From an uncultured Verrucomicrobiales bacterium (GTDB lineage: Bacteria; Verrucomicrobiota; Verrucomicrobiia; Verrucomicrobiales; DEV007): a DNA stretch of 60,851 bases. Location of the stretch: assembly GCA_937891465.1 (NCBI GenBank), contig CALAHF010000227.1, positions 1 through 60,851 of the forward strand. Reading direction: 5' to 3'. The notes under the pieces were generated by a model. It did not search any database and was not told where the DNA came from. It was given only the letters and a program-made list of their open reading frames with translations. The translations under genes were made by a program, and so were the position numbers. Below, in pieces: positions 6,102 to 60,716 of this stretch. The stretch's first letter is position 1; each line of letters starts with the position of its first letter.

Positions 6102-6152
6102 CACGTTCTCAGCGAACAGTATTGATTGTCAAATTTCACATCAGTTACTTAA

Positions 6153-6194
6153 CAACAGGGTTGGTTCATCGAACTTACCCTATTAGTTCGTGAA
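6153..6194. repeat. Dispersed palindromic repeat, copy 1
   Basis: A short copy of the window's repeat family, with CAACAGGGTTGGTTC on the left and a degenerate ACCCTATTAGTTCGTG on the right. It lies upstream of the damaged HEAT-like gene, in a 211-base gap. Confidence 0.7.
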
Positions 6195-6312
6195 ATTTAC
6201 TTTCTGCAGCTCAAGCCGCTTAATTTCGCGGCTCACGGAACGACGTCCCATTTCGAGCCAATACCAGATTCTGATCATTCTGCCGATCAGATGAGGTTCA
6301 CTTTTTCGGAAC

Positions 6313-8222: not shown

Positions 8223-9154
8223 CTACGTTTTCGGAAATGGCCAATCGGGATAGGTCGATTCCAGAATATTCAGAATTCGGTGGCGTTCGCTGCTCGTGAG
8301 ATAATCAAAATCCGGCCACAACGCCGCATTGGTCAAAACCCCATGGATTTGCGTAAGCACCCGCGACTTCAACTCATCGGGCAAATGAGAAAATACATCC
8401 GAATAAATCAAGTAGCTGCAGCGGTATTTAAAAACCCGCTCGAACAAGCGCAGATCTCGCAAAGACCGATGTTCATCATCTTTTAAGGCACCTTTGGTGA
8501 AGGCTTTTTGAAATTCAAGCGAGCCTTCGATGCCATCATTGTCCATGTGAAACTCATCCACAGAAAACAAAGCCCGAACAATTTTCGTAGCCTGACCATC
8601 GAGAATTTTTTGGTTTGTCTCCGACAACTCTTTGCCCACATCTTCATTGAAAGCTTTTCGCATTTCGGCATGAAGGTAAAGCGTTTGCTTGCCCGATGTC
8701 CCCGTGACATACCATCCGCCCCACCGTTCAGAAAGAGGGCTTTCCGGCCTCACGTTCGCGAAGTCTCACCATGTGGAAAACGGGCCCCAATTTTTCATCA
8801 AACGTCATCGCTTCGATGTTGCCATTTTGAACCCAGCCGACATAAGCATTGTCGGAAAAGTAAATCGCCCGCGGCGTGCGCGGCGAAATCCGGCTATTCT
8901 GCGCATTGGTCTTTGAATAAACCAAGACCTACGATTCCTTTGGAATTTCCAATAACGCAAGAAGTTGGCTCAGGACTTTTTGATCGGTTTTTCCATTCAA
9001 TAAAGGCTCTCCATTTGCAATCCGATCGGCAATCTTTGTGAGCGGTGTTACCGCTTTCGTGGCGGAATAATTGGTCGGAGCGCGCTCGAACGAAGGCTCA
9101 AATGCGAACGCGAGCGTCATCGACGATGACAACAGTCAGGAGAGTCAAAATCAT
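8223..9154 (-). pseudogene. Cytochrome-like exported protein, decayed (haem segment lost)
   Basis: Three pieces read as one protein. The first (down to 8932) contains FEPSFERAPTNYS and ends IPKES at a TAG (8929-8931). The same frame continues directly as VLVYSKTNAQNSRISPRTP and YFSDNAYVGWVQ. This is the N-terminal half of a family known to me from planctomycetes and proteobacteria. There, a PSF-type segment leads to a CxxCH haem site and later to SPLSERWGGWYVTG. In this copy the frame breaks at about 8727-8753 and SPLSERWGGWYVTG follows at once in another frame, so the haem-binding stretch is missing. A signal-like start MILTLLTVVIV at 9154 is also out of frame with the rest. A pseudogene is the best reading. 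Confidence 0.75.
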
Positions 9155-9944: not shown

Positions 9945-12224
9945 TTAAGGGGTCGAAAAAACCAGTTCACCGTCCTTTTCTCCCAGCGAAATCCGAATCG
10001 TTACATCACTTAACCCCGGCGAATCAGCCAGCCATCTGGCTAATAGCAACGTCACATTTTCTTCGATCGCACGCTACAAAGGCCGCGCGCCATAAACGGG
10101 ATCAAATCCCGCCTCAGCAAGAAATTTGCAGACCTCGTCATCCACTTTGAGCTTGAGATTTTTTGAAGCAAGCCCTTCTCGGTTCGTAATGTCGGAAAGC
10201 TCTTTGCGGGTGATAACTTCGATTGCAACTCGATCCAACGGGCTGAAATAGATTACCTGATCGAGCCGATTAAAAAATTCTGGCCGGAAAAATTGCATCA
10301 CAGCGCCGCGATCCACTTCCCTAATGGCAGTCTCTCCGTCGTTGCTAAAACCAAGATTTCCGCTGGAACCGGCGCCCAAATTCGAAGTCATCACAATCAG
10401 CGAACTTTGGAATGAAGTCAGCCGACCCAACGAATCCGTCAGCCGCCCTTCTTCGAAAACGTTCAGGAATAGGTCAAAAACCTCGTCGCTCGCATTTTCG
10501 ATTTCATCTAAGAGCAGAACAGAAAACGGATTTGCCCGCATTTTCCGAATCAATTCACTCGGCTCCCCCGTTTGGCTTCCCAACAGGCGTTCAGCCGCGT
10601 CGTAGCCTGCATATTCACTCATATCGAGACGCAACACCCGCTCTTTTTCCGGGCGATTGGGAAAAAGAAAGTCTCCTAACAATCTTACCAACTGAGTTTT
10701 ACCAACTCCGGTGAGTCCGCAAAAAAGCAAAACACCAATGGGACGGTTCGGATCGTTTAAACCTGCGGCAAATTTCGCAACCAATCGACACACCGACTCC
10801 ACCGCTTCATCCTGAGCGATGAGTTTTTCCTCAAATTGCGCCACAATCGATTCGTATCCAAGTACGGAATCTTCGCGAATCAAAAAGTCGGGCAAGCCGG
10901 TTGCGTCTGAAAAGCCAGCTTCCACATCACCACTTCGAATCTCCGGAGATCTTATGTTCGGCGCGCGATCCACCAAATTCCCTATGAATTGAATCACTTT
11001 TCCCGGAAATGCCACATACGGCTGAAAACGAGAGAACAAATCGTGGGTCCGCTCCGCAGCGGGCAGTCCGTAGGCGACATTGTCGTTTTGCGAGAAAAAA
11101 TCCGCCGCACGCGTCACGATGTTCTTCGATTGATCCGAGGTAAACTTTTCCAACTTCAGAATCTGCATTCGATCCAGCAATCCCGGCAACATCCGGTCCA
11201 AGGCATCAATCTCAGTCGGCGGTGCTTCGGCGACAATTCGCAATTCGCCGCTTTCCAAATACGGCACCAGAAATGCAGCCAAACTCGCGTCGGGCGTCTG
11301 CCCTCCGAGCCGCGTCAACTACATCAAGTTATCAATACACAACACTCCTGGAATTCCTGAAACACGCTGAATTACCTGCTCCAATAGCTCCTGCCACTGG
11401 CCGACCCACCGCATCCCCGCAACCAATCGCGAGCCACTCGTAATCCAAAATCGTTTCGGTTGTTCGCCCGATCCTGAATGCCAAGCTCGCTCAAGACGAC
11501 GCGCAGCATCAATCAAAATCGCCGTTTTTCCGCAACCGGATTCGCCCACAATACAGATGCTGGAACTGTCTTCGGCGAGCAGTCGGATCAATTCACTCAC
11601 CTCCCGTTCTCTTTCCCACGTGCGGGAAACCCGCCGAAATCCGCCACCACCCGGGTGATCAGCAACACCAGGGAGCGGTTTCAATGCTTTATCCTGCGAC
11701 TCGCGACCTTCCAAATCCTCCTTCAGCGTCACGCTTATTTGATCGAGCTTTAGATCACCCGCCGGAAAAAACCGTGATAACTCGGCTGGCGTTTTTCCGG
11801 ACAACTCACGTTGCGCAATGTGAATCGCCAGTTGCTGAAAACTGTCTTCTCGATGGTAATCAAAAAACACACCCAACGTCGGCAGAAACGCAATCAGCGA
11901 TCCGCTCTCACGTTTTCCAATGATGCACGGCAACCGATACCGCACCCCTTCCCGACACGGATAACTTCGCGGGCCCACCGTTTATTCAGGTAAAACCGAG
12001 AACTTCAGCACTCGCATTTGAGGCTCGAAGAAATCAGGATCAAACAGCCGCCACGAATTCAATTTGTTCAAATGCGTTAGATGTTCCTTGATCTGCGAGA
12101 CCGCGTCCTTCGAAGAACCGCTTGTCACGATCGCTTCGTCATACCCATCATCAACCACGCGCATCGTCACCGTTTCCGGCGTGCTCTGCCACGTGCAAAA
12201 AGAGAACCGGAAAATCTTCGCCAT
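9945..12224 (-). pseudogene. Clp-like AAA+ ATPase interrupted by three in-frame stop codons
   Basis: One reading frame of 760 codons from the ATG at 12224 to the TAA at 9945, broken only by TAA at 11982-11984, TAG at 11319-11321 and TAG at 10074-10076. Across all breaks the protein continues naturally: an N-terminal domain (MAKIFRFSFCTW start), a first AAA+ module with Walker A GESGCGKT and Walker B GVLCIDNLM, and a second ClpA/B-type module. The second module has Walker A GLTGVGKT, Walker B VLLLDEIENAS, TSNLG, and FRPEFFNRLD with its arginine finger. It ends with GARPL, stop, RAIEENV, exactly where Clp proteins read GARPLxRAI. No frameshift is present. It may be a recent pseudogene, split genes or a readthrough case. 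Confidence 0.75.
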
Positions 12225-12251: not shown

Positions 12252-12295
12252 CGATCGAACAGGGTTGGTTCATCGTATCAACCCTATCAATTCAT
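12252..12295. repeat. Dispersed palindromic repeat, copy 2
   Basis: CGATCGAACAGGGTTGGTTC is followed by a degenerate right arm ATCAACCCTATCAATTC. It sits just upstream of the Clp-like gene and downstream of the long operon's last gene. The remaining ~100 bases to 12401 show nothing convincing. Confidence 0.65.
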
Positions 12296-12401
12296 GTATG
12301 GGGCAAACCGTTGAATTTGAGGTGAAACGTAGTCGTGAATCGATGGGGTTCAGACAGGCGTATGCCGGTTATTTATCGCTATTGAATCGTGGAAGCGCTT
12401 T

Positions 12402-15400
12402 TTACTCCAACGCAGCCTCAATCGCTTTTGCCAAATCCTGGCCCATTCCCTCTTTGTATCCACTGTGAACCCACGCCACTTTACCGTCTTTTCCAATCAC
12501 GACGGTGTGGGGAATTCCCTGAACTTGAAACTGATCTCCAATCGTTTGTCGCGAATCGAGCCCAACTGGAATTCCAGCCCATTTACGCTGCTCCAAAAAT
12601 TGCTCGATGATCGGTGCCGTCTCGCCTTGATTCACCGCGAGAAAAGAAATCTCATCTGCAAACGGTCCAATGCCTTCGAAAATTTCCGGCATCGCTCGGA
12701 CACATGGCCCACACCACGTTGCCCAAAAATCCAGCACCACGACTTTGCCTTTTTCGTTGCTCAATCTGAATTCGCCACCATCCAACATTGCTAATTTAAA
12801 GTCTTTAACCACCTCCCCTTTCAGCGGTGATGATTCGCCACCATCGTCGGTCGGGATCACTGGCTCCGGTGCGCGCTCAAGATTCCAATCGGCGTATGCA
12901 ACCATGATCGCTGACTTTTTCTTACTCGATTTTTCTTCTCCCCTGCCAATTTCTGAAACCTGCCGCAACGGAATTTCGCATCGCCCGAGGAGCGCGGACA
13001 TTCCGATAAATCGATCTCGATTGATTTCTTTCGCCTGCAAATTCACGCGCGTTCCGTCATGGAGCACAAACCGATGCGTCACCTCAAAAGGCTCGGCTGG
13101 CGCAACTTTTTTAGCTACTACCTTTTCTTTCTTTTCAGATTTTGCTTCTTCCTCATCTTCTTTCGGCGGAGGTGGCTTCAGCCAGACAATCGTTGATACC
13201 CGTTCGCGCGGGAAATTAAACGTCTCAAGTTTTGACGAAAACCGAACATTCTCGCCGCTTGCAGCAATCAATCGGCCGCGAAGTAAATCGCCATTCGGTG
13301 CGATCAAAACATGAGTCGCCGGATTGTCGCGACGAAAGCGTGGAATCCGCAGAATCGCCTTCTTCGCATCCGGGTCAATCACCCGGGTCGGCAGATAACC
13401 GGAAGTCCGCTGCACTTCAAAATTCGTAAACGTAATTTCCATCGTATTCCGATTGAACCCCTGCCAGCCGCCGCCTTCTTCAATCAACAACCCATTTCCG
13501 GACTGCTTGGAATTATCCAGCGGGATCGTGAGACGACGCGCGTCATTGACGAATACCTGCAACCGATTCCCCTGATGAGTCACCTTAATTTTCGCCTTCC
13601 CGTTGGTGATGGGGATTTGCTCATTGGAGAAATTGAACTGCCCTCCCCGCTTGGTTTCTCCGATATACAGGCGGCTCGACTGGGCCGCAAAAACGATATC
13701 GGTCGACGGGCTATTTTTCTCAAAATCGCTCAAGAAAAGCCGCAGCGTAAATGCTCCGACGTAGGGCTGCTTCCACGACGCATCGAATTCAACTTCATCA
13801 CCGGCTAATAACGATCGATGCCCGAATCCACCTTTTTTCAAAATCACCGAGTCCTTCTTCAATTTCACAGAGTCTTCCTTCAAAACTTCGTCCGGAAACA
13901 CTTCCCAACCGGCATCTCCAAATCCTTTCAGCTCCGCTGCCGTGGCCACAATATCAATGGCCCGCACATCCTTGGGATCCAGTTTAACAATCCCCGTGTA
14001 TTCGCTTTGAAAATTGATCGTCTTGGCATCAATCGAAATCAGCTTTCCGCTCAGCACCTCATCGTTTTCTAAATACACATAGCCGTGACCAAGCATCTTG
14101 ACTTCTCCCTTCGGCGCGGCTCGCACAATCTTGCTGACTACTCCCGGTTTCAACGCGCTGGCATTTTCAGAACCCGCCGGACGCCACATGACAAGTGCTT
14201 CAGCCCCTGCATCGTTTTTGCCTGGAGAAATACGCCCCTTCAGAACGGTTTTGTCGATGACCAATTCATCCGTGGCAACGCCCTCAATCGGTTCGTCTCC
14301 AAAAAATGCGATCTTCCGGGTCGATCCCAGATTCGCCACAATCGGCTCAGTTGTCCAAACGGGCTGCACTGAAACCGTCGTGCCATTCAATCCCGTAAGC
14401 TTTCCCGAAAGCACTGTTCCATCCAACCATGCCACGTAAATATCGCGCTCCTTAGGATTCTCCGGCAAATTCGGGTTTCGCGGATTCAGATCAAAAATAA
14501 TGTGATCAATGTCTCCGATCGCCTCCGATTTCCCTTTCGTTGTGGTCAGCTTGCCACCAGCGACAGATTTCACAGGATCGTAAATCGCCCCACCATCGGC
14601 CAACTCCACTCGTGTTTTTTGAGCACTGATTTCGGGCGGCAAAACACCGTTCCATTTGCGAATCCGAAAGTCACCGAAGTAGAGATCCGTCGTTTTGTTC
14701 AACAGCGAAAACCCCTCTTCTTTTACATTTCCAGTCCGGTTCGAAGTCCGCCGACGGCTTGATGCCTTGGCACTTCCCTCTTTCGAAACCCCTTTCACAT
14801 TCTCAAGTTTTGCCAGCTGCTTGCCATCGGCGTCATGAACGGAAACCAACCCGCTTTTTTTGTCCCAAAACATTTTGAGTCTTACATTTTTCGTTCCGGA
14901 AGAAATCTCCATGAGTGGTTCGAAGTCATTTCCATAACTCAGCACCAAGGTGTCATCCCACGTTTCAATCGAAGGCCCCATCGCAGGATCCAGATAAAAT
15001 CCGGCCGTAAACTCCAATGGATTGACCAGAGATTGAAGATTGAACTCCGCTTCCAGTTTTTCGGGATGCTTGAAGCTTCTGAACAAATCGCCATGCCACC
15101 GCTTTGTTCCGAGACGGCCTTCCGGTGTCGGAACCCAGTCGCCAATTTTGCGTTCCCTACCGACTGATTTCCAATCCCGCTGACTATGTGGCCCGGCCAA
15201 AATCAGATTCGGAGAATTCATTCGCTCAAGTGATGCTACTTTCTCGCGCGGGATTTTCAATTCCTCCCCGCCTTGAAGCCGCCCACTTTTTAAAACAACA
15301 TCCCCACTCGAAATCGAAATCAAATCTCCAGTGATGACATCACCCGACTTCATCGTGACCCGAAATGCTTCCGTCTCACCTTCAAGTTTCTTATCAGACC

Positions 15401-15659
15401 CAAATCGCACCATCTGAAGCTGCCCGATCTTGATATCGAAAGGCTCTGTGAAAAACTCCGACTGCCAACGAATCACATCTCCCCGCTCACTTGGCAACAT
15501 CGTCCCCTTTAGCGAATCGCCATTTTTCCAAAACAGCCATGCATCGTCATCTTCAGCTTGGGCAACACCCGAGACTAACATTGCCAAACTAACCAACGGA
15601 GTCAGTTTACCGAGCAGACTTTGTTGACTCGTGGAAACCTGTTTTTTGAAAATCACCAT
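12402..15659 (-). CDS. Giant exported protein with C-terminal TlpA-like thioredoxin domain
   Basis: A 1085-residue protein with a signal peptide after a basic start (LTPLVSLAMLVSGVAQA). The last ~140 residues form a TlpA/ResA-type thioredoxin fold: VVVLDFWATWCGPC, with the redox motif WCGPC at about residue 982, then the cis-proline region QGIPHTVVIGKDGKVAW. The first ~900 residues are beta-rich, with repeated short units of the kind L.NGD.L.G.L and sandwich-like stretches, suggesting several propeller or jelly-roll modules; no named family is recognised. It is the last gene of the MoxR operon, three bases after the preceding gene's stop. Role inferred: a periplasmic thiol-redox or structural component of the complex made by this operon. 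Confidence 0.8.
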   Translation of the reverse strand: MVIFKKQVSTSQQSLLGKLTPLVSLAMLVSGVAQAEDDDAWLFWKNGDSLKGTMLPSERGDVIRWQSEFFTEPFDIKIGQLQMVRFGSDKKLEGETEAFRVTMKSGDVITGDLISISSGDVVLKSGRLQGGEELKIPREKVASLERMNSPNLILAGPHSQRDWKSVGRERKIGDWVPTPEGRLGTKRWHGDLFRSFKHPEKLEAEFNLQSLVNPLEFTAGFYLDPAMGPSIETWDDTLVLSYGNDFEPLMEISSGTKNVRLKMFWDKKSGLVSVHDADGKQLAKLENVKGVSKEGSAKASSRRRTSNRTGNVKEEGFSLLNKTTDLYFGDFRIRKWNGVLPPEISAQKTRVELADGGAIYDPVKSVAGGKLTTTKGKSEAIGDIDHIIFDLNPRNPNLPENPKERDIYVAWLDGTVLSGKLTGLNGTTVSVQPVWTTEPIVANLGSTRKIAFFGDEPIEGVATDELVIDKTVLKGRISPGKNDAGAEALVMWRPAGSENASALKPGVVSKIVRAAPKGEVKMLGHGYVYLENDEVLSGKLISIDAKTINFQSEYTGIVKLDPKDVRAIDIVATAAELKGFGDAGWEVFPDEVLKEDSVKLKKDSVILKKGGFGHRSLLAGDEVEFDASWKQPYVGAFTLRLFLSDFEKNSPSTDIVFAAQSSRLYIGETKRGGQFNFSNEQIPITNGKAKIKVTHQGNRLQVFVNDARRLTIPLDNSKQSGNGLLIEEGGGWQGFNRNTMEITFTNFEVQRTSGYLPTRVIDPDAKKAILRIPRFRRDNPATHVLIAPNGDLLRGRLIAASGENVRFSSKLETFNFPRERVSTIVWLKPPPPKEDEEEAKSEKKEKVVAKKVAPAEPFEVTHRFVLHDGTRVNLQAKEINRDRFIGMSALLGRCEIPLRQVSEIGRGEEKSSKKKSAIMVAYADWNLERAPEPVIPTDDGGESSPLKGEVVKDFKLAMLDGGEFRLSNEKGKVVVLDFWATWCGPCVRAMPEIFEGIGPFADEISFLAVNQGETAPIIEQFLEQRKWAGIPVGLDSRQTIGDQFQVQGIPHTVVIGKDGKVAWVHSGYKEGMGQDLAKAIEAALE

Positions 15660-15662
15660 GCC

Positions 15663-16706
15663 TTAAAATCGTTCGTAAACCGGCAGGAACCGGTAGTTCA
15701 ATGCCATCGCCAGCAAACTCATTGCCGTGCCGTATCCCTGACCGTAGCTCCCCTGAAAACTCCCGTCAGCCGCCTGTTCAGCCGCGAGTTTTCTCGCCGT
15801 TAATTGATTCCACTTCTGCCACGAGTCGTAGTCGCCCTGGAAAAGCGCCTGCGCCATGTAGTAGATAAAATAGTGTTTGTGACCACTTTCACTGTGCTCC
15901 AGTTGCTTCGAAATGTGTCCAATCGTCGCTTTGTATTCATCCCAATCCCGCTTCTGCCCCACCGCGTATACCAGCGTCGCAACGGCTGAGCGATTCATGC
16001 TTTCGCCCATGCCACCAAAGCCCCCTGAGTAATTCACAAAACCACTCGTTCCCGTGCTGCGCCGCATGTATTCCAGTGCTTTATCGATCGCTTCATCCGG
16101 AACCTCAATCCCTGCGTTTCGACACGCGAGTAATCCCATCAACACCGAACCAGTGACCGATGTGTCGGCATCAGTCGACTCCGGCGAATAACGCCAGCCT
16201 CCCCAGCGATTATTTTTCTGAGAGGTCACCGCACAGCGAACCGCTAAATCGAGGGCCTTCGCGATCGGCCGCGTCTTGCCTTTTTCAGCACCCGTCCACA
16301 GTGTCGATTCATCAATCGCTCCGTAGACTTCAGCCAGCGCCAGCATGGCAAACCCGTGATGGTACATGCTACTTTCAAAATACCCCGTCTTAGAATCCTG
16401 CCCCAGAATCAGCGCGCGGACTGACCGGCCAACCGTTGAGCGATAACGGCCAAAATTAGGGTCCTCGCCACTCGCCAGAAAAGCCATCAAACAAAGCCCG
16501 GTAATTCCGTGCTCTCCGCGACCGTTCCACGTTCCTGTGTCGGCCTGACTTTTCACCAAATAACCCAGACCTCGCTCATAGATCGAATCGACCTCCGGAG
16601 GAATTTCTCCACCAAAACGGATTGCCCCGCCTTCAACCGGCGCCTGTGCAAAAAGCCCCCCGGAACAAACCAGACAAGCCGCACTAAAAATTAAGTTTCG
16701 CATCAT
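15663..16706 (-). CDS. Exported prenyltransferase/squalene-cyclase-like repeat protein
   Basis: A 347-residue protein with a signal peptide (MMRNLIFSAACLVCSGGLFA). The rest shows repeats of the alpha-barrel type found in terpene cyclases and prenyltransferase beta subunits: GLGYLVKSQADTGTWNG, then GWRYSPESTDADTSVTG, then AAEQAADGSFQGSYG, each with a Q..DG.W/F element. An export signal and lack of a DxDD motif argue against a true cyclase; such exported forms are common in planctomycete-type operons and may be binding scaffolds. It starts 28 bases after the upstream stop and ends 3 bases before the thioredoxin gene. The ATG at 16706 is chosen over the upstream TTG at 16730. Confidence 0.8.
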   Translation of the reverse strand: MMRNLIFSAACLVCSGGLFAQAPVEGGAIRFGGEIPPEVDSIYERGLGYLVKSQADTGTWNGRGEHGITGLCLMAFLASGEDPNFGRYRSTVGRSVRALILGQDSKTGYFESSMYHHGFAMLALAEVYGAIDESTLWTGAEKGKTRPIAKALDLAVRCAVTSQKNNRWGGWRYSPESTDADTSVTGSVLMGLLACRNAGIEVPDEAIDKALEYMRRSTGTSGFVNYSGGFGGMGESMNRSAVATLVYAVGQKRDWDEYKATIGHISKQLEHSESGHKHYFIYYMAQALFQGDYDSWQKWNQLTARKLAAEQAADGSFQGSYGQGYGTAMSLLAMALNYRFLPVYERF

Positions 16707-16734
16707 TCTAAAAAGTAGTTCAACAGCCAATCAT

Positions 16735-17724
16735 TCAATCGATCATGATCTGCATTCCATTGATTTGGACATTGCCACCCCAAAATCCGTTCTGACCTTG
16801 TTTGGGTTGTTTGATCAAATCATCCCAGCGAGCGAGTTGAGCTTCGGATAAAAATCCGGCCAACTTCTCCCGATCCAGCTTCTGAAGATTCGGGGCACCC
16901 TTTGGAGAATTAACCACCCCGTTTCCGACTCGGATCACCCCACCAGCGGCACGGATCTGCTGGCGAATAATAACCCGGCCGTTTCCCTGAATCGCCACAG
17001 GATTGGGATTAACCTTAACTTTCCCATCGCTTTTTTTTCCAGGTTCAAAACCATCAAGCAATTCAAAAAGTCGCTGCCTTTGATCATTGGTAAGCCGCAA
17101 CGTGTTGTCAGCCGTTTGCACCATCTGCGCAACTTGAAGGGAACGATTAAACTCTGTGCGTTGCGCTTTCGTGACCTCCCACGATTTTTTCTGATCGTCC
17201 GTCAGCGTTTTATCAATCGTGGCCACCCACAGCGGATTCGTCTCCGCAGTCCCCGGTTGCAACTGCCGCCCCCACTGCGCGATAATTTGGTCAAAATTCA
17301 CTTTCGGCTCTTTGCCATCATCATCCTTGTCGCCCTTGTTTTTCGCCTTCTGCGCCCGGATTTGATTGGCTGCCATTGCCTCCAACTGCTGAATCAATCC
17401 ATCCTGCCTTTCCAAATTCGCAATCCATTCTTCGATCGCTTTTTCGGCAGCCCCTTTGGCGCCGACTTTCAACTTAGTCTCCTGCACCATGTTCAAGTTG
17501 CTAGAGCGAGCAATCTCCGAAATGACCACCCCAAGATGACGAATGACGCCATCCCGATTCGTCTCGCGGACAGATTCCAGAACTTCTTCCCAGCGTTTCT
17601 TCTCGTCTTTTTTCCGAGCTTCTTCCTTGGCCTTTTCAGCTGCTTCCTCTGCACCGTCCTGAGCAAAGCCACTCGAAATTGCTAATAGCAACACCGGAAG
17701 TAAAAGTCTATGAAAAATGTTCAT
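16735..17724 (-). CDS. Exported helical LTxxQ-like protein (paralogue of the next gene)
   Basis: A 329-residue exported protein with signal peptide MNIFHRLLLPVLLLAISSGFA. The mature part starts with a highly charged helical stretch (EEAAEKAKEEARKKDEKKR). A motif close to LTxxQ (LRLTNDQRQRLFELL) recalls Spy/CpxP-type periplasmic helical proteins, but the fit is loose. It shares segments with the neighbouring gene: GVVISEIARSSNL against GVVIEDIARLSGL, and AAEKAIEEW against ATERSMQSW. The two therefore look like an old tandem duplication. The C-terminus is Asn/Gly-rich. It lies inside the MoxR operon 18 bases after the preceding gene. Confidence 0.75.
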   Translation of the reverse strand: MNIFHRLLLPVLLLAISSGFAQDGAEEAAEKAKEEARKKDEKKRWEEVLESVRETNRDGVIRHLGVVISEIARSSNLNMVQETKLKVGAKGAAEKAIEEWIANLERQDGLIQQLEAMAANQIRAQKAKNKGDKDDDGKEPKVNFDQIIAQWGRQLQPGTAETNPLWVATIDKTLTDDQKKSWEVTKAQRTEFNRSLQVAQMVQTADNTLRLTNDQRQRLFELLDGFEPGKKSDGKVKVNPNPVAIQGNGRVIIRQQIRAAGGVIRVGNGVVNSPKGAPNLQKLDREKLAGFLSEAQLARWDDLIKQPKQGQNGFWGGNVQINGMQIMID

Positions 17725-17742
17725 TCCAAAAATTGTCATCCC

Positions 17743-19128
17743 TTAAAACTTCGGCAGTGGTGAGAAAAAACGGGCGCCGCCACCGTCGATGTTCCCGACT
17801 TCAATTTCACCCTTCTCTTTCTCCTCGGCTTTTCCGCCTTTTTTGTTTTTCCCTTGTTTCTCAGCCTTCTTTTCCGCGGCGTGTTTTTCCTTTTTTTCTT
17901 TTCTCCGCTGATCCCAAAAGTGATCAAAATCTGCCGTGGAGCCTTCCCAGCGATCGTATTGCTTCTCTGTCAGCACCGATTTAATTTCATCCAAATCCGC
18001 CCCGCCAAGAAGCGACATCAGCATGCGCTTTTCGAAATAATCGCCCCAGTACTTACGAATTTGATCCAGATATTCGGTAGTCGCTCCTTCCGCCAGAGGG
18101 GTCAATTTAGCGTGTTGTTGCGGAGTTAACCTCAGGTGTTCATCCAGTGTCGCCATCACGACCATTGCGAATGCTTTTTCTGAATAGCGCTTCCGCTCAT
18201 CGACCACTTCCTTGTAATCATTCACCTGTTTGTCAGAAAGCACTTTTGCCAACGACTCCTTCCACAAATCCTCATCCTCCCCTTTCTTTTCAGCATCCCG
18301 GCCGCCGAAACTAACGTTTCCAATTGAAGCCAGCATTTGATCCGCATTGTCTTTCGTCGCCCCTTTCATCCGCCCTTGAACGTATCGATCAGCCTGATCA
18401 TACCAGCTTTGCATCGAACGCTCAGTCGCTCCTTTTGCAGCCACTTCGAGCCGCTTCGTCGCCGCCTCATCGAGCCCACTCAGGCGCGCGATATCTTCAA
18501 TCACGACGCCCATGAAAGACGAGCGCTTTTGGCGTTCTCCGTCAGACATCTTATCAAGCAGCTTCGAAATTTTTAGCTGAACATCTTCATCCTTATGCTT
18601 CAGCGGCTCGTTTTTCTCCCCGTCTTCCTTTTTTTCTTTCTTCGCAGCAACGAAACCGCCACCCACTTGGATTTCATCCATAACAATGCCACCGCCAGCT
18701 TCCATCATTTCCTCTGCAATGGCTTGAATCGCCTCCAAAGGATTTGCCGGAGTATCCGGGATTTCCTTCGCATCAGGATCCCCTTTCAAATCATTCATCA
18801 AAAACGGATCTGGCTCTTCCCCCGTCTCCTTAGCCTTTTTTAAAGCCTCCTTTTTTGCTGCATCTTTCTTTGCTTCAACCTTTTTAGGATCAGCCTTTAC
18901 GGGCGAGTTGGTTGCAAAAGGATCCGGCTCGTCCTGCGAGAATCCGGACGCACTGATTCCTAACAACCCCACTAAAAGACCACAAGCCGCTAGACGGCCA
19001 AATCGAACCAACAGGGAGACAAGCTGGCTCGCCAGCGGTCCGAGAAACGCCGGGAACCGGCTCGGCAGGACAGCCCTTTCTAAAAAGGTTGGTTCATCGA
19101 ACGAACCCTGTTGATTCGTGGGAATCAT
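17743..19128 (-). CDS. Exported helical protein whose N-terminus is read from a repeat element
   Basis: A 461-residue protein. Its ATG at 19128 overlaps the upstream stop (ATGA) and sits six bases behind a perfect AAGGAGG, so the start is well supported. Residues about 3-42 are read from the dispersed repeat at 19001-19122. A signal-peptide-like stretch, RFGRLAACGLLVGLLGISAS, follows only after it. A TTG at 19011 just before that stretch is the alternative start. The mature part is acidic and lysine-rich with Lys/Glu tails and an LRLTPQQHAKL motif, and is paralogous to the following gene. The role is probably periplasmic and tied to the MoxR operon. Confidence 0.8.
   Translation of the reverse strand: MIPTNQQGSFDEPTFLERAVLPSRFPAFLGPLASQLVSLLVRFGRLAACGLLVGLLGISASGFSQDEPDPFATNSPVKADPKKVEAKKDAAKKEALKKAKETGEEPDPFLMNDLKGDPDAKEIPDTPANPLEAIQAIAEEMMEAGGGIVMDEIQVGGGFVAAKKEKKEDGEKNEPLKHKDEDVQLKISKLLDKMSDGERQKRSSFMGVVIEDIARLSGLDEAATKRLEVAAKGATERSMQSWYDQADRYVQGRMKGATKDNADQMLASIGNVSFGGRDAEKKGEDEDLWKESLAKVLSDKQVNDYKEVVDERKRYSEKAFAMVVMATLDEHLRLTPQQHAKLTPLAEGATTEYLDQIRKYWGDYFEKRMLMSLLGGADLDEIKSVLTEKQYDRWEGSTADFDHFWDQRRKEKKEKHAAEKKAEKQGKNKKGGKAEEKEKGEIEVGNIDGGGARFFSPLPKF
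19001..19122. repeat. Composite dispersed repeat, copy 3 (inside coding sequence)
   Basis: The ends carry the repeat core in inverted form, TCGAACCAACAGGG at 19003-19016 and CGAACCCTGTTGATTCG near 19100-19116. Between them is a ~70-base module (GACAAGCTGGCTCGCCAGCG and onward). A related module appears in opposite orientation at 25143-25213. The whole unit is translated as part of the 461-residue gene. Confidence 0.75.
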
Positions 19129-19709
19129 TTTGATCCTCCTTCGAGTTTGTTGAAATACTTATCCAGTCCCATCCGGAATTCTTCTGGAAAATCACGTCCG
19201 GCACGACCGGTCGACTGACCGATATCACGCTGAGAAGGCTGAACTTCTTCTGCCGCTCCCGAACCGATGTCAGCCAGCGCCGCTGCCGAAGTTGAACCCT
19301 GGCCACCTCCGCCCGGGCTGCTGCCACCTCCGCCGCCGCCATTCGGATTCTGGCGTTTTGCCTGAAGCAAAAGCTCGATCGCTTCAGTCTCTGCCCCGAT
19401 CGCTTCCGGTCCCGTATCTGGACGAGAAAGAATTCCACGAGCCGCGCGCATCACGTCAGAAACCGCTGACAAAAGCTGAATCTCTTTACCAAATTTCTCG
19501 CCACCTTCAGGAAGTTCGAGAATATCGGAAATGATCTCGTCGGTTTTTTCGCGAAGATCGGACTGCGTCAATTCAAGTGGCGCGACCTTGTCCTCATATT
19601 CATCAGGCTGAAGCGCGGGACGAATTCCCTCCATCTCTCGCGTCTCATCACGAAGCTTCATTTCGCCGTGTAAAACCTGCATGACCTTTAATACGATTTC
19701 TGGCGACAA
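19125..19709 (-). CDS. Continuation or partner of the DUF4175-like gene
   Basis: A 194-residue frame in exactly the same phase as the upstream 941-residue gene, separated from its TGA (19734-19736) by only eight sense codons. There is no ATG near its start; the TTG at 19709 is the first possible initiator. The translation has helical segments (LSPEIVLKVMQVLHGEMKL), a VVSDVM-like core and a Gly/Ser-rich stretch (about residues 124-145). It could be an independent gene, or the C-terminal part of one ~1144-residue protein cut by a TGA. Its own end overlaps the next start (ATGA). Function unknown. Confidence 0.65.
   Translation of the reverse strand: MSPEIVLKVMQVLHGEMKLRDETREMEGIRPALQPDEYEDKVAPLELTQSDLREKTDEIISDILELPEGGEKFGKEIQLLSAVSDVMRAARGILSRPDTGPEAIGAETEAIELLLQAKRQNPNGGGGGGSSPGGGGQGSTSAAALADIGSGAAEEVQPSQRDIGQSTGRAGRDFPEEFRMGLDKYFNKLEGGSK
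19135..19141 (-). promoter_or_regulatory. Perfect Shine-Dalgarno site deciding the start at 19128
   Basis: The minus strand reads AAGGAGG six bases before the ATG at 19128. Most genes in this window lack such a site. It fixes the start of the 461-residue gene upstream of the repeat-derived codons, unless initiation occurs at the internal TTG at 19011. Confidence 0.7.
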
Positions 19710-19733
19710 ACTGTCGCCTGATCCGTCGCCTTG

Positions 19734-22559
19734 TCATGTCTTACCCTTGGCTGCCGAAACAAGCTCCTCAGCCCATCGGTCCAACGAATCCGCCCAGAAT
19801 TCCGCAGCAACAATCGAGCGGCCGTTCAAGTTCACTTTCACCGTCGCGCCGATGTCTTTCAGCTCCGTCACGATTTCCGTGTCGCGCATCCCATCGAGAA
19901 TCTTTTTGTAACGCACATCCTGCTTTCGCTGAAAATACGCCGCCAAATCAGTCTGAATTATGTAAACGTTTTTGCTCTCCGCTTCCTCACGCTCGGACAC
20001 GTTCTCACCGGTTTCGCGTAAGTCTTGTGCAATGCGATCTTTCGACATTCCGAATCCACCGTTCAAGGTCGTGTTCAAATCCGTGGCAATTTCCATCTGC
20101 TCACGCGATGCCGCTTTCAATCGTTTCACAAACGTGCTCGCCTCCAAACTCGCCAACAATTCCTGCAACTCATCTGCGACCTTGGCAAACTCGGCCAACA
20201 GCCCTTCCTGTTCAGTGATCGCTTCATCCATTTTTTCCTGAGCTGGTGATTCAGCCTCGCCAGCCTCCTCATCCTTCTTCTTGCTGGCAACGCCTTGCAA
20301 CACCGTTTGTGGCAATGTGAGCTTGCCTTTGCTCGGCTTTTTCTTGGGATCTTCCGGCGCATTTGGATCCGGCTTCACCTCTGGCATAAATCCTTTTTCG
20401 TTTTCGGCAATTGTCGGCACTGCCGGAATTTTTTCTTTCGAAGGCTCTTCCTCGGCCGCTTTTTTCGGCTTACCGCCCTCACCCGCTTTTCCAACCATCG
20501 GTCCGCTTTTGTTCGATGATTTTGACTTCGAAGGCTCGCCTGGTTTTTCACCTGGCTTGCCGGGTTTACCCGAACTCGCCTGACCTTCCGGCGGCTTCTC
20601 GCCCTTACCATTTTGAGCCTGCTGCGATGCCTCCCCCGGCTTTCCTGGCTTGCCCCCTTCTTTACCTGCAGCGTTGGCAGTTTGTTTCAACAATTCAGAA
20701 ACCGAAGGCATCCGATTTTTTGAAATATCATCCAATGACTCTAACATCTTCGCCCACGTTCCAAGACGCTGAGCATCAAACTCTTTGTTCTTCGTTGCCT
20801 GCTTCACGAGTTCAGTTCCGGAACCTGTCAGCGATTCCAAACGACGCCCGTTGCTTGCTTCGGCGTTGGCTTGCTTTTCGACCTTCCGCCGATTTTCCGG
20901 CCGATCCAATTCACCGGCATCCATCTTGCGCAGTTCCTTATTGGTCGAATAAAGCTGCTGTTCTTTTTCGTAAACTTCCCGCGCATTGCTGAACCATTTT
21001 CCAAATTCATCCGTGAGCCATTTTGCATGGTCATCCGGATTCATCACATGAATCACAAACGCTGGCGAATAAGAACGCGCTCGCTCTGGCTTGTAATCTT
21101 CAGCAAACGCACGCACCTGCAACGTCTGCGGCTTCACGCCCTCGCGCTTCGCTGAAAACGTCCCTTGAACGGCAACATCACGCTTCTGAGGATCACCTGC
21201 CGAAACCAATTTATCGCCCGAAGACGGATCCGGATTATGAATCGCGTCCTTCAAACCAACCCACTCAAGGCCGACTTTTTTTACGCCAAAATCATCACCC
21301 GCTGAGATATCAAAATTCACCACTTCGTCTTCCAACACGACTTGCTCCCGCGTCAGTTTTTTCGCAAACACATCCGGTGCCGTATCATCAACCGCATTGA
21401 TCCGCAGCTTGAGCGGCTCCTTCGGCGTCAGCCCATGAATATCTTCCCAATCCAACAACCGCGTCTGCGACTCAGTCACTTCTGCAGCGATCGTTTGAAA
21501 CCAATTCTTTTCTGCCATCGTGCGACTTCCGTCTACTTCGACCCGTTTCAGATCGCGATTCGCCGTTCCTTTGATCGTTGCCTTGCCGCCTTTAACAACT
21601 GACACCGAACCACCGCGAACTTCGATCTCCGGATCGTGATCGTAGCGCAAATAATCCGGCAATTGAATGATCGCCAACAACCCTTCCAACTCAGGGCGCG
21701 TCATTGGCAGAACTTCGATATCTTCCCGCACATCACCAATCCGCACTTTCATCGCACCGTCCTCTTTCAGCGGAGGCGAATTGAACTCAAATTTTCCTTC
21801 AACGTTCGACGCCTCAAGCGGAAGCTCGCCGCCCGGCACATGCAGCTTACCCGTTTCAGGATTCCACTCCGTGTCGTTTTTCATCTGCGCCGCGACATCA
21901 AATGGCTCCGCGTATGGCACGACCATTTTGTCAGGAAGCTCCTGAACCTTCGCAAACGTGTAACGATCCGTATCTTTCCACGGCATCATCCAACGACTCA
22001 GCGCATTGCGCGCCGCATCCGATACGAAAAAAACTGTCAGCATCGCCACGCCCAGCGCCGCGAAGGCACCCACCATCCACGCCCGATGATGATTATCCGG
22101 CACCGCATTTGAAAAATCCTGATCCCGCACTTTTTCATCCACCTGCGCCATCGCCGCCCGAACCAGCGTTTTCGAATGCGCCGTTTCATCACCGCGCTTC
22201 GCCAGTTCCACGATACCGAGCAACTGATCTCCCAGCCGGGGAAACTTCAGTTTCAAAAGCTTCGAAACCGATTCCAGCGAACGCTGTTTCCAAACCCACT
22301 TGTGCCAACGCAACGGAAGCCCCAGCCCCAGAACAGCCGCACCCGCGATCAAAATCAGCGCTCTCAACCAGCCAGGCGTATCAAAAGCACGATCTAGACC
22401 GAAAACTACGAGATACGAAATCGCCAATCCAACAATCGCCGCCAGCGCTCCTTCAGCAATTTTCACCGCCCATAATCGGCTCCGAAATTCTTCGAGTTTC
22501 GCTTGCAGGCCCTCAGGCAAATGCATCTCAGCGGGGTTCGGTTGCGGCTCGTTTTTCAT
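19734..22559 (-). CDS. DUF4175-like large membrane/periplasmic protein
   Basis: A 941-residue protein. Two membrane helices lie near the N-terminus (LAAIVGLAISYLVVFGLD, then LRALILIAGAAVLGLGL), followed by a cytoplasmic-looking KFPRLGDQLLGIVELA stretch typical of DUF4175/TIGR02302-type proteins. A long beta-rich region is followed by a helical, Lys/Pro/Gly-rich low-complexity part (about residues 610-760) and a final helical domain. Such proteins accompany MoxR/DUF58/vWA genes in many planctomycete-type operons. The start at 22559 is preferred to the TTG/ATG at 22628 because the extra 23 residues are simply the translated repeat copy 4. It stops at TGA with an in-frame continuation. Confidence 0.8.
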   Translation of the reverse strand: MKNEPQPNPAEMHLPEGLQAKLEEFRSRLWAVKIAEGALAAIVGLAISYLVVFGLDRAFDTPGWLRALILIAGAAVLGLGLPLRWHKWVWKQRSLESVSKLLKLKFPRLGDQLLGIVELAKRGDETAHSKTLVRAAMAQVDEKVRDQDFSNAVPDNHHRAWMVGAFAALGVAMLTVFFVSDAARNALSRWMMPWKDTDRYTFAKVQELPDKMVVPYAEPFDVAAQMKNDTEWNPETGKLHVPGGELPLEASNVEGKFEFNSPPLKEDGAMKVRIGDVREDIEVLPMTRPELEGLLAIIQLPDYLRYDHDPEIEVRGGSVSVVKGGKATIKGTANRDLKRVEVDGSRTMAEKNWFQTIAAEVTESQTRLLDWEDIHGLTPKEPLKLRINAVDDTAPDVFAKKLTREQVVLEDEVVNFDISAGDDFGVKKVGLEWVGLKDAIHNPDPSSGDKLVSAGDPQKRDVAVQGTFSAKREGVKPQTLQVRAFAEDYKPERARSYSPAFVIHVMNPDDHAKWLTDEFGKWFSNAREVYEKEQQLYSTNKELRKMDAGELDRPENRRKVEKQANAEASNGRRLESLTGSGTELVKQATKNKEFDAQRLGTWAKMLESLDDISKNRMPSVSELLKQTANAAGKEGGKPGKPGEASQQAQNGKGEKPPEGQASSGKPGKPGEKPGEPSKSKSSNKSGPMVGKAGEGGKPKKAAEEEPSKEKIPAVPTIAENEKGFMPEVKPDPNAPEDPKKKPSKGKLTLPQTVLQGVASKKKDEEAGEAESPAQEKMDEAITEQEGLLAEFAKVADELQELLASLEASTFVKRLKAASREQMEIATDLNTTLNGGFGMSKDRIAQDLRETGENVSEREEAESKNVYIIQTDLAAYFQRKQDVRYKKILDGMRDTEIVTELKDIGATVKVNLNGRSIVAAEFWADSLDRWAEELVSAAKGKT

Positions 22560-22593
22560 AACAGGGATACTAAGTTCGACGCGGTTTACGCTC

Positions 22594-22635
22594 CAACAGG
22601 GTTCATTCATCAAACCAACCCTGTTCAATCGTTGA
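22594..22635. repeat. Dispersed palindromic repeat, copy 4
   Basis: CAACAGGGTTCATTCATC with right arm CCAACCCTGTTCAATCG. It fills the gap between two genes of the MoxR operon. The 22636-22774 remainder shows nothing recognisable. Confidence 0.75.
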
Positions 22636-22774
22636 TTAACCTACCATTTTGAACGGATTAATGCTCCATTCTTTTAGTAAAAAATTTGTCAGTAATTCTT
22701 GGAAGTAGAACGCTGTAGAGCGACGCAATTTTTCAAAAATGTTTACTTAATTGGCTCGCAATGACGTTGCTAAT

Positions 22775-24985
22775 TCACACAGCCCCAATCACTTTCCGGC
22801 CAATCCAAAAAATTGCCATCATCACCAAAATAAAGGTCGCCCAGCCCCAGTGAGCCCAAAGTTGGAATCGCTTCTCGCGCAGTTCAGGCTCAGGCATTTC
22901 GGCAATCGCTACGACGATCGCGGCTGGATCAGCAGTGGCAGAAATCATCTTGCCCTTAGTGACGCGAACAATTTCTTCGAGGACATTAATCCGCGCGGGC
23001 TGGCCGAGTTTTTCGCGCATGGCCCCTTGAACTGAAATTGTGGTTTCAAGCGTGCCGCCGTTCTCCGCACAAGTCATCAGCATCTGATACTCACCCGGTT
23101 CGGTCGGGGCAAAGGTGCCTGAAAACAGGCCCCACATTTCTTCGCCGCCGGGCTGAAGCCGAATCGATTCTGTTTTTCCAGAAGGGGCGGTCGCCTGAAC
23201 AATCACCGTGGCCTGCTGCAACGGTTCACCGCCAATACTCATCACGTTGGCGTTTAGCGTCAGTACTTCGCCAGTTCGCGGGCGATCTGGAGAATAGAAA
23301 AGTCGCATCGTTTCGCCCTGAGCCATGTTTCGCTGATACGCCATCCAGCGAGCGACCTGCCCCCAAAAACGATAGTGATACCGATCCTCAACGCCTTTCC
23401 GCCAACGCCACGCGCCGTCAGTTCCCATGAACAAAATTTTGCCCGTTCCAAAGGTCTTCGTCACGATCAGTGGAATACGGCCATACCGATTTGATTCCGA
23501 ACTGTGCGTCGCCAAAACCTCGGTTCCCGCCTTGGCTCGCTCAACTCCGGCAAACCACTGAAAGCCCGGCAGCGAGGCCCAGACATTCGCGTTCTTATCA
23601 TCAGAATCTTCCAATTTAGTCAAGAGCGAGCGCTCACCGAGATCGGTCAAATCAAACTGGCCCGGCGCGGGAGATCCCCATCCGCGCGGCTGAGCCTGAT
23701 CATAGACCACTGGCAACAAATCGCTCAATTCCGAATTCAGCAGCGTGTTTTGATTTCCCTGAAAGCCGGGCAAAAACACCAAGCCACTCGCTTGGTTCGC
23801 CACCTGCTTCCGAATCGCATCGATATTGTCCTCCGTGAGTTGATCCGGCACCAAACCGACATCGCCAAGAAAAATCACATCGTATTTCGTTAACGTTTCC
23901 GGCCCGGGAAACTCTTTCAAATAGCCTTTTCCGCCGCCGACTTTATCCAGCCCTGGATGAAACAGCAGGCAGTTCACCTCCACACCCGGATCCCGCTCGA
24001 GCGCGTTTCTCAAATACCGATATTCCCAGCGCGGCGTGGATTCGATCACCAGCACACGAAGCTCTTCTTTCCTAATTGCCAACGGTGCGGTCAGTATATT
24101 GTTATCCGGAAACCGCTCCAAATCTGATGGCGGAACATCCAGCGTCAATTCGACTTCCCCTTCTTTCAGCGGCCGCCAGGTGAAGGTATCCTGCACCCGA
24201 CCCATCGCAGGAATTGTGACCACCTTCGTGACCGATTCCCCGTCGGACGTCTTCATTTCAACCGTCACGGTGTAATCCTGCGGCAGCGAACTTTCCAACG
24301 CGAACGGAATTCGCACCGGCTTACCACCGATTCCAAAAGCCGGCACATCAAAACCAGCGATCGTCACATCCGGAAGCCGCGTTTCACTACCTGCCGAAAC
24401 CGCAAACACCGGCGTTTCCCGCATCCGCATTTGCGTCGCGGCCCGCTCCGGCGGCTCACCCGTGTTCCAATCACCATCGGTTGCCAACACCACGCCGCGC
24501 AGATTTCCATTTTCTTCCAAAACACGCGCCAAAGCCGCGTTCAAATCCGTCCCCGATTCCGGAGGCTGCATCCCTGAAGAAAACGGCTCGATCACAATAT
24601 CCATCCGATCCTCCAACGATTTCCACATCTTCGCATCCGCCAACGGCATGATCACTTCCAAACGCGTTTTTGGTGCCTCCGTCGGTTTATCCGGGTTCAG
24701 CACATCCGCCGTTTCCATCGACTTCGACGCGTCATACAACACCGCCAAAACCGGTTTCGTATCCGGCTTAAATTGCTCCAACCACTCCGGCTGATTGAGC
24801 GAGAACGCAATCAGCGCCACGATCAAAATTCGCAACAACTCGAGCAATCCAAATCCCTTCGCAAAATGCGCCCGCCGCCATGACAGAAACGAAATCACAC
24901 ATGTCACCAACACCGCCAGCACGCCAAAAACGACGATAGCCGGTGGCGAGAGAAAAGTGAGTTTGCCTGTGGATTCAGCGAGCAT
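22775..24985 (-). CDS. vWA-domain membrane protein of the MoxR operon
   Basis: A 736-residue protein. Two N-terminal helices (AIVVFGVLAVLVTCVISFL and LLRILIVALIAFSL) are followed by a von Willebrand A domain whose MIDAS motif reads DASKS. Further on is a glutamine-amidotransferase-like fold with VLVIESTPRWEYRYLRNAL, which is typical of these large membrane proteins in MoxR clusters. A last helix lies near the C-terminus (GWATFILVMMAIFWIG). vWA proteins of this kind bind metal through the MIDAS site and are thought to be clients or partners of MoxR ATPases in assembling envelope complexes. The ATG at 24985 is the only sensible start. A 260-base gap with repeat copy 5 separates it from the upstream gene. 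Confidence 0.85.
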   Translation of the reverse strand: MLAESTGKLTFLSPPAIVVFGVLAVLVTCVISFLSWRRAHFAKGFGLLELLRILIVALIAFSLNQPEWLEQFKPDTKPVLAVLYDASKSMETADVLNPDKPTEAPKTRLEVIMPLADAKMWKSLEDRMDIVIEPFSSGMQPPESGTDLNAALARVLEENGNLRGVVLATDGDWNTGEPPERAATQMRMRETPVFAVSAGSETRLPDVTIAGFDVPAFGIGGKPVRIPFALESSLPQDYTVTVEMKTSDGESVTKVVTIPAMGRVQDTFTWRPLKEGEVELTLDVPPSDLERFPDNNILTAPLAIRKEELRVLVIESTPRWEYRYLRNALERDPGVEVNCLLFHPGLDKVGGGKGYLKEFPGPETLTKYDVIFLGDVGLVPDQLTEDNIDAIRKQVANQASGLVFLPGFQGNQNTLLNSELSDLLPVVYDQAQPRGWGSPAPGQFDLTDLGERSLLTKLEDSDDKNANVWASLPGFQWFAGVERAKAGTEVLATHSSESNRYGRIPLIVTKTFGTGKILFMGTDGAWRWRKGVEDRYHYRFWGQVARWMAYQRNMAQGETMRLFYSPDRPRTGEVLTLNANVMSIGGEPLQQATVIVQATAPSGKTESIRLQPGGEEMWGLFSGTFAPTEPGEYQMLMTCAENGGTLETTISVQGAMREKLGQPARINVLEEIVRVTKGKMISATADPAAIVVAIAEMPEPELREKRFQLWAHWGWATFILVMMAIFWIGRKVIGAV

Positions 24986-25042
24986 TAGTGAGATTAAAAA
25001 GGAGTCGGATATTGGTGTTTTGTTTTAGAGAACTTTCGTTTT

Positions 25043-25143
25043 CACGATCGAATAGGGTACGTTCAACGAACCAACAGGGTACGTTCGTGAAGCCGTTTCG
25101 ATCCGATAGGGTATGTTCGATGAACAGACCCTGTTGGTTCGTA
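25043..25143. repeat. Dispersed palindromic repeat, copy 5 (long form)
   Basis: A ~100-base double form: AATAGGGTACGTTCAACGAA, CCAACAGGGTACGTTCGTG, CCGTTTCGATC, GATAGGGTATGTTCGATGAA, and then ACCCTGTTGGTTCGT. The same order of elements occurs in copy 8 at 55.6 kb, so this long form is a defined unit. It lies between two genes of the MoxR operon. Confidence 0.8.
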
Positions 25144-25213
25144 ACAGAGACATCTTGCTCTGCCGTTTCCCGGACAGCTTCAGACCGCTGGCAAGCCAGC
25201 TTTTGTCTCTGTT
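25143..25213. repeat. Second repeat module with AACAGAGACA/TGTCTCTGTT ends
   Basis: A ~71-base element bounded by a 10-base inverted repeat, AACAGAGACA at 25143-25152 and TGTCTCTGTT at 25204-25213. Its reverse complement aligns with the middle of the composite repeat at 19012-19082, for example sharing GCTGGCTtGCCAGCGGTC with one difference. Confidence 0.75.
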
Positions 25214-25245
25214 GTTTCGTGAAAAAGGAGCGGGAGAAAAAGCCA

Positions 25246-27294
25246 TCATGCTTTCGCCTCCTTCTTTTTCGGGACGACTTTCTTCTCGGTTTTTGCCGGA
25301 AAGCAAAGCGCCGCTTCGATAATCAGCGCGAGTGCCATCGTGATCAAAAAGGCGCGCCAAATCTCGCTGGCCAAACTTGAACTGTCGCCGACTTCGTCTT
25401 TAATCTCGCGATAGTTCAAACCGGAGAACAAATTCTCGATTTCGCTGGAGTCGATTTTTCGAATGCTGTCTTCGTCCAAGCTGCGGTTCACCGCGACAAG
25501 CTGTTTGCGAGGCTGATTTTCAAATGCTCCCGCGAGCAATCCTTTTGTCAGCGATGTCTCATCCGGATTCGAAGTTTCACTGATTTCAAAAGCTTTCCAG
25601 CCGGTTTCGTCACCCGCAAAAAGCCCGCCTTCAGCACTGCGCTGCTGGGCTTTAGCGAGCGCTTTTGCCCCCTGATCCAATGCCCGGTGCAACATCACAA
25701 AAAACACAACACCTTCGCGGGCAAGGCTCGAATAGCTCGGCGATGGCAACGTTCCGCAAAAGTAGATTGCACCGCGTGTGTCAGTCGGAACCCGTGTCAT
25801 GATTGGCTCACCCGGCTCAGTTTTCAAAAGCGGCTGACCTTCTTCGCCGACAAATTTTCGCACGCGAAACATGTTCAGCTTCCCAACCGGCAGCGCATCG
25901 CCGTTTTGAGTATTGGCTAACAAATCAGATTCGGTTCGCCACCAACCCACCGGAATTGCATCAGTTGACTCGGGAACCCACTCGCCCCAATTTCCACCCA
26001 TGAAACCACTCGCGCTTGGGCTCGCGTCGGTTGGTAGAAAAATCACGGTTTTGCCCGATTCGACAAATTGCTTCAACTGCACGCCGTCGGGAGTTCCTGG
26101 TTCTGGAATCGCGGTGTGCCAGAGAAGAAGAGCCGTTTCAGTCCACGGAATTTCGGCGATTCGTGAGGGATTGATCACTTCCGCCACGTAATTTCGACCG
26201 GGATCAATTTGCGAAGAAACGGCTGCTCGAATCGGCTCGATGACTTGGGCTTCATCAGAAACGATGACCGTTTTCTGAGACGGCGCTTCATCGAAAACGA
26301 AGTAAAACGAATTGTCGCGCGGGTTTGAATCAGCGGGGACGGAGATTTTTCCCCACCCGCGTTCGGTTGTCGCGCCAATAGGAATTGTGTGGCCTTGCAT
26401 CGCCAAATCGAGACCTTCGATCTTCACAGTACCGGCAGTTCGCACGCCATTGATGACATATTCGATCGGCACATCAATCGGTTTTGGCTCGGCCCCGACG
26501 GGCATGTGGCGGCGCAGATAAATATCCATCTGCAGCTGAGCCTGATCGCCAATTTTCCGACGCTTCACGTTTTCGACGGTCACCGCGATATTATCCGGCG
26601 CGACATCGGGGTAATTCAAAAGATAAAACCGAACCCCTTCGAGCGATGCAAACGCGGCGCGAAGGGAATCCCACCGACCACTCGCCGGGCCCCAATCCTG
26701 AGTTCGTAAATCTGAAGCGAGCCATACATCCGTCCGGCCAGAGCCATTCACCGTGATGTAATCCAGCGCAGTCTGCATCATCCCCGCCACATCAGCAGTC
26801 GCATCCGTCGGCCACGTTGCTGGCAGGTCGTTCAAGTTATCCGCTTCCGCAATTTCGATCGGCCGGTTCTCGACACTTTCGATCAAAACAACCCGAGTTC
26901 GTTTGCCGACTTTTTCGATGAGATCCGAGATTTTCTTCAACGAAGTGGACCGTTTCGATTCACCCGTCAGTAAATTCTGCTGCTCCATCGAAGCGGATCG
27001 ATCCAATAAAACCAGCACCGTATCCGGCGCGCCGCCTGCCGTCAGGGCAACCCATCCCGAAGCCAACGGCCGCGAGATTGCAAAAATCAATGCCAGCAAT
27101 GCCAGCACTCGCATTGCCAAAATCAGAATTTGACGAAGCCGCGCCATTCCCTTCGTCATCCGTTTTGCATCGAGCAAAAACATCATTGCCCCCCATTTTA
27201 CCGTGCGATGACGATGCTGGTTGATCAAATGAATGATCACCGGCAAAATCGCGAGCGGGATGGCCCAGAGTAGGAATGGAGCGAGGAAAGACAC
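25246..27294 (-). CDS. BatA-like vWA membrane protein
   Basis: A 682-residue protein starting at a GTG. The N-terminus (FLAPFLLWAIPLAILPVII, then HLINQHRHRTVKWGAMMFL) is the BatA N-terminal membrane motif of aerotolerance-type operons. A second helix follows at about 58-75. A vWA domain then shows DRSAS as its MIDAS motif. The middle is beta-rich, and one helix lies near the C-terminus before a lysine-rich tail. With MoxR and DUF58 upstream, this is the expected third member of the cluster. It starts 26 bases after the small exported gene. Confidence 0.85.
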   Translation of the reverse strand: MSFLAPFLLWAIPLAILPVIIHLINQHRHRTVKWGAMMFLLDAKRMTKGMARLRQILILAMRVLALLALIFAISRPLASGWVALTAGGAPDTVLVLLDRSASMEQQNLLTGESKRSTSLKKISDLIEKVGKRTRVVLIESVENRPIEIAEADNLNDLPATWPTDATADVAGMMQTALDYITVNGSGRTDVWLASDLRTQDWGPASGRWDSLRAAFASLEGVRFYLLNYPDVAPDNIAVTVENVKRRKIGDQAQLQMDIYLRRHMPVGAEPKPIDVPIEYVINGVRTAGTVKIEGLDLAMQGHTIPIGATTERGWGKISVPADSNPRDNSFYFVFDEAPSQKTVIVSDEAQVIEPIRAAVSSQIDPGRNYVAEVINPSRIAEIPWTETALLLWHTAIPEPGTPDGVQLKQFVESGKTVIFLPTDASPSASGFMGGNWGEWVPESTDAIPVGWWRTESDLLANTQNGDALPVGKLNMFRVRKFVGEEGQPLLKTEPGEPIMTRVPTDTRGAIYFCGTLPSPSYSSLAREGVVFFVMLHRALDQGAKALAKAQQRSAEGGLFAGDETGWKAFEISETSNPDETSLTKGLLAGAFENQPRKQLVAVNRSLDEDSIRKIDSSEIENLFSGLNYREIKDEVGDSSSLASEIWRAFLITMALALIIEAALCFPAKTEKKVVPKKKEAKA

Positions 27295-27320
27295 TTTTTG
27301 GAGTGATTAGTGGATGGTGA

Positions 27321-28684: not shown

Positions 28685-28705
28685 GAAGATAGATTTTTCT
28701 ATAAA

Positions 28706-28750: not shown

Positions 28751-28773
28751 ATTGGATCAAAAAACGCGTGAAA

Positions 28774-41413: not shown

Positions 41414-41415
41414 AA

Positions 41416-60715: not shown

Positions 60716-60716
60716 A

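Follow-up and report, generated by a model that had tools for sequence, protein, structure and literature searches.

Unfoldases of the Hsp100 type, such as ClpA, ClpB and ClpC, are built on two AAA+ rings, the second of which (D2) comprises a large and a small domain. Unitary nonsense pseudogenes of bacteria are characterised by orthologues that stay intact in relatives, by stops confined to a single lineage and by the loss of partner genes, and stop-codon recoding, by pyrrolysine, suppressor tRNAs or alternative codes, may present itself as an indel-free frame with TAG inside it. The locus described here shares features with each of them. It lies in the window, the whole 60,851-nucleotide contig C227 (CALAHF010000227.1) of a 5.97-Mb draft genome of 229 contigs and 95.6% completeness from an environmental member of the Verrucomicrobia (G000), and its closest comparison is a sister species of the same genus (G001), which matches a contig of the Verrucomicrobiales MAG SS_bin_30. 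On the minus strand, positions 12224 to 9945 form a single frame of 760 codons, 756 of them sense, with internal stops at 11982–11984 (TAA), 11319–11321 (TAG) and 10074–10076 (TAG), and a terminal TAA at 9945–9947. Reading the frame confirmed exactly what the preliminary description had given, and its statement that no frameshift is present was borne out as well, since the frame aligns end to end, without gaps and with 78% identity, to an uninterrupted protein of 757 aa in the sister species. Given this alignment and the 16–42 stops found in each of the other five frames of the stretch, we take it to have been a genuine coding frame once, rather than a product of chance. Only 80 codons precede the first stop, which prevents synthesis of the full-length protein. 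In our view the stretch 9945–12224 is very probably a young unitary pseudogene of a two-ring Clp/Hsp100 unfoldase, hereafter gene C, the third member of a three-gene Clp-like set.

The ancestral protein contained two AAA+ modules and a D2 small domain, all of them still recognisable on the minus strand. The N-terminal part of the first module (D1; PF00004, residues 141–218 of the middle open segment) spans 11325–11558, carries the P-loop GESGCGKT and is interrupted by the second stop. The D2 large domain (PF07724, E 7.5e-32) occupies 10257–10745, followed by the D2 small domain (PF10431) at 10077–10238, where the match ends at profile position 52 of 81, cut by the third stop. PDB matches of the protein were ClpB, ClpC and ClpA, and its best NCBIfam matches were the ClpB and ClpA models. 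Nevertheless, the intact protein of the sister species reached 283–295 bits against curated ClpA/ClpB cut-offs of 993 and 1232, about a quarter of what an equivalog-level match takes, so gene C belongs to a Clp-like family and is not ClpA or ClpB itself. Unlike ClpA, ClpB and ClpC, the family has an N-terminal domain of its own, which found no match in Pfam or PDB. It also differs from ordinary ClpC in the Walker B motif of D1, where the catalytic Asp-Glu pair (DE) is replaced by [ED][NS] across relatives and the broken gene reads CIDNL; the earlier claim that both Walker B motifs are kept therefore holds for D2 but not for D1. On the other hand, a Gly-Phe loop within the D2 large domain lines up with the region of ClpC that holds its ClpP-docking loop, a likeness that suggests a ClpP-linked unfoldase. 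Two residues of D2 have changed in the broken gene: its Walker A motif reads GLTGVGKT instead of the GPTGVGKT of the family, a substitution absent from relatives, and a strongly conserved Lys just after Walker B has been replaced.

Besides the sister species, gene C is open in 14 further, more distant relatives, two of which belong to the Planctomycetota, and the stops were private to G000 among all the genomes searched. All three fell on conserved columns. The first stop, inside the family-specific N-terminal domain, and the third, inside the D2 small domain, replace residues identical in 15 of 15 relatives, and the column of the second, inside D1 just past the Walker B region, is acidic in all 15. 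These positions bear on split translation, one of the options of the preliminary description, by which the four open segments would be made separately through restart at GTG and TTG and would then assemble. The restart codons are present as described, with TTG directly after the second stop and GTG two codons past the first. Inspection by eye, however, revealed no purine-rich ribosome-binding site suitably spaced ahead of the GTG or the TTG, the second and third stops would break the protein within folded domains, in both cases ATPase domains, and no orthologue split in the same way was found among the relatives searched. Split translation thus appears to us scarcely credible.

In five verrucomicrobial genomes (G010, G041, G051, G004 and G005) gene C is the last of three adjacent genes on the same strand, here called A, B and C (L042:7591-16539, L043:7848-16629, L044:3240-12293, L045:7135-16075 and L046:5966-14423), which in their intact form encode proteins of about 1090, 1130 and 760 aa, respectively. 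B and C are likewise neighbours in Verrucomicrobium sp. BvORR106 and one planctomycete, so that the set occurs in Verrucomicrobia and, at least as regards B and C, also among Planctomycetota. In the sister species the three genes lie on different contigs, A being cut by a contig end. Both A and B bear C-terminal extensions of several hundred residues; that of A showed no Pfam or PDB match, and a release-factor-like (PCRF) domain considered for it was discarded for want of support from either source. None of the family libraries searched lists the set under a system name, and a literature search for a three-gene ClpA/ClpB-like operon gave no match. Filing it among defence systems was rejected, the PADLOC matches being modest in score and due to shared AAA+ cores only, and so was a link to the published MoxR/vWA conflict systems, as the passages on Clp in PMC7159879 mention no three-Clp set.

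In the genome under study the set is broken as a whole, as far as an assembly of 95.6% completeness can tell. A search with the B protein of the sister species recovered about 100 codons at C48:119-424, with 78% identity, carrying internal TGA and TAG; homology stops on both sides of this relic and a different gene starts at C48:508. Full-length A was not found in the 229 contigs. The nearest match to it is a separate ORF of 147 aa on contig C73 (L080:757-1200), similar to the C-terminal part of A at about 50% identity and with no Pfam match of its own. Two TGA codons reported there lie upstream of the start of this ORF and carry no meaning. The housekeeping ClpC of the same genome, in turn, is intact (C162, 851 aa).

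Errors of sequencing or assembly are known to inflate the number of internal stops in public genomes (PMC11017572), and false stops of this origin, or arising from a mixture of strains, could be suspected in a draft assembly that is probably metagenome-derived. Yet gene C has three stops in 760 codons, and the other long open genes of the window, about 17,160 codons in all, appear to have none. The chance that three random stops would all fall in gene C is 8e-5, or about 0.003 after allowing for about 35 genes. Moreover, base miscalls do not cause the loss of most of a gene, as seen in the truncated partner B, and the missense changes at conserved sites point in the same direction. Random error is unlikely, given the concentration of the stops in a single gene and the physical truncation of partner B, and error of any of these kinds seems to us a very unlikely source of the stops.

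As a test for relaxed selection, substitution rates were compared with those of four control genes: MutL, a MoxR, the neighbour encoding 1085 aa and the housekeeping Clp. In the protein tree, the ratio of terminal branches between the two sister species (G000/G001) was 3.2 for the broken gene and 1.15–1.94 for the controls. Parsimony counts for the broken gene were 46:26, a ratio of about 1.8 that was about the same in MutL and the housekeeping Clp, and private departures at conserved columns showed the same bias towards G000 in these two controls. Relative-rate tests were therefore set aside as a sign of relaxed selection, given that no clear excess over the control genes was seen and that the G000 lineage is fast in the controls too. 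A codon branch model gave an omega of 0.056 on the G000 branch, with no significant excess (2dlnL 2.3), a result that has to be read against synonymous saturation, with 57% of third positions differing. This model was likewise abandoned as evidence of relaxed selection owing to that saturation and to unstable splits of branch length.

The preliminary description had considered an indel-free frame with stops unusual on the premise that decay usually adds indels. As calculated from the codon make-up, 3–4% of random substitutions (about one in 27) create a stop. If the whole tree-based excess is assumed to be neutral, 3–6 stops would be expected, and the probability of zero frameshifts would be about 0.001–0.19 at assumed rates of 0.05–0.02 frameshifts per substitution, that is, mildly to clearly unlikely depending on the indel rate assumed. 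With a smaller number of neutral changes, which is what the parsimony counts point to, the missing indels are easy to accept. With about one substitution in 27 producing a stop, and with indels indeed present in a neighbouring relic (8223–9132), the premise appeared weak, three stops and zero frameshifts being no more than slightly unusual in a pseudogene of recent origin. After a long decay, the lack of a frameshift over 760 codons would be mildly unexpected. In this respect gene C differs from other unitary nonsense pseudogenes of bacteria, in that no small indel has arisen in it so far, which places it at an early stage of decay. The stops are private, the partner genes are gone or broken, and the sequence between the stops has diverged mostly as a constrained gene would; taken together, a sound reading of these data is that most of the divergence of gene C predates its loss, and that the loss is young.

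The indel-free frame and the low overall omega on the G000 branch could also be expected if the stops were tolerated, with near-cognate decoding or a suppressor tRNA still yielding a full-length Clp protein, and in-frame stops that persist briefly have been reported as common in bacteria (PMC7918605). A weak tRNA-like element with a CUA anticodon is present in the genome. This element of 67 nt lies on the minus strand at G000:C199:247-313 (L152:148-214), displays a CUCUAAA loop and was called by ARAGORN as tRNA-Pyl with a low score. It reached 30.7 bits, in contrast to the 52–76 bits of 34 clear tRNAs with ordinary anticodons among the 38 candidates of the genome. Its anticodon stem contains mismatches, its T-loop is of the ordinary kind, and none of the ORFs on its contig was recognised as a pyrrolysine gene. 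The element is probably a degenerate tRNA, and as it was the one CUA candidate among the 38, a suppressor tRNA was rejected. Among the remaining candidates, one on contig C131 scored below the family cut-off and was not called by ARAGORN.

The stop codons themselves argue further against readthrough. The first stop of gene C is TAA, which a tRNA with a CUA anticodon is not expected to read, and the relic of B contains TGA, so that each of the three stop codons takes part. In the window TAG serves as a normal terminator, ending 5 of the 36 long ORFs, or 3 of 34 when two pieces of gene C are left aside, and these include intact long genes. Conserved motif residues between the stops have changed as well. 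Since gene C holds TAA and TAG and the relic of B holds TGA, the reassignment of one codon does not account for the pattern, and the combination of one reassigned codon with a tRNA that decodes it was not found. The likeness to stop-codon recoding thus ends with the indel-free frame and its internal TAG, and tolerated readthrough, the second proposal of the preliminary description, appears highly improbable. A broader version of it was considered with regard to a MoxR-like paralogue at G000:C204:44926-45801 (about 6927-7802 of L111, G000:C204:38000-52000), which contains an in-frame TAG and TAA, is otherwise open over about 290 codons and has its N-terminal part out of frame. According to this version, the lineage would tolerate in-frame stops through a weak amber-reading tRNA together with general readthrough, and both the Clp gene and the MoxR paralogue would make low amounts of full-length protein; we give it hardly any credence.

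Of the three options originally put forward, very recent mutation is hence the one that fits, in view of the private stops and the lost partners, and we read the locus as a case of common gene decay of recent date, with no novel use of the genetic code. We propose that an ancestor of the lineage carried an intact gene C within the three-gene set. As judged from the two AAA+ rings and the Gly-Phe loop in D2, the products of the set were probably substrate unfoldases of the ClpA/ClpC type working with ClpP. The set would then have lost its use in the G000 lineage, B would have shrunk to a remnant, A would have been lost or left unassembled, and gene C would have gathered three nonsense substitutions together with missense changes at conserved sites. 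We infer that no function remains in gene C, and that the set was lost before the stops arose in it or together with them. As a pseudogene it is ordinary in itself, but it may be useful as a natural marker, in which a three-gene Clp-like set has been caught while being lost together. This joint loss suggests that the three genes function as a single unit, one that a cell with the housekeeping ClpC can do without.

The broken gene sits at a break in synteny. Positions 12402–29805 of the window are collinear with contig C480 of the sister species, but this collinearity does not extend to the Clp gene and the sequence that follows it, and in the sister species gene C is located on a contig other than C480, beside a fumarylacetoacetate hydrolase-like gene. 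About 0.8 kb downstream of the broken gene, on the minus strand at 8223–9132, lies the remnant mentioned above. The sister species has the corresponding protein intact (440 aa), but here the reading frame is interrupted by a stop and shifts, and the middle segment is missing. The intact counterpart displays a CLNCH haem-binding-like motif. The window also contains a dispersed repeat of about 22–50 nt with a consensus near CGAACCAACAGGGTCTGTTCGATGAACCAACCCTGTTGGTTCGT, mostly intergenic and sometimes in tandem, with copies for example at 6145–6203, 12258–12307, 19082–19131, 25042–25154, 41366–41415, 55563–55666 and 60715–60764. As far as can be judged by eye, a sequence similar to this repeat seems to adjoin the relic of B on contig C48.
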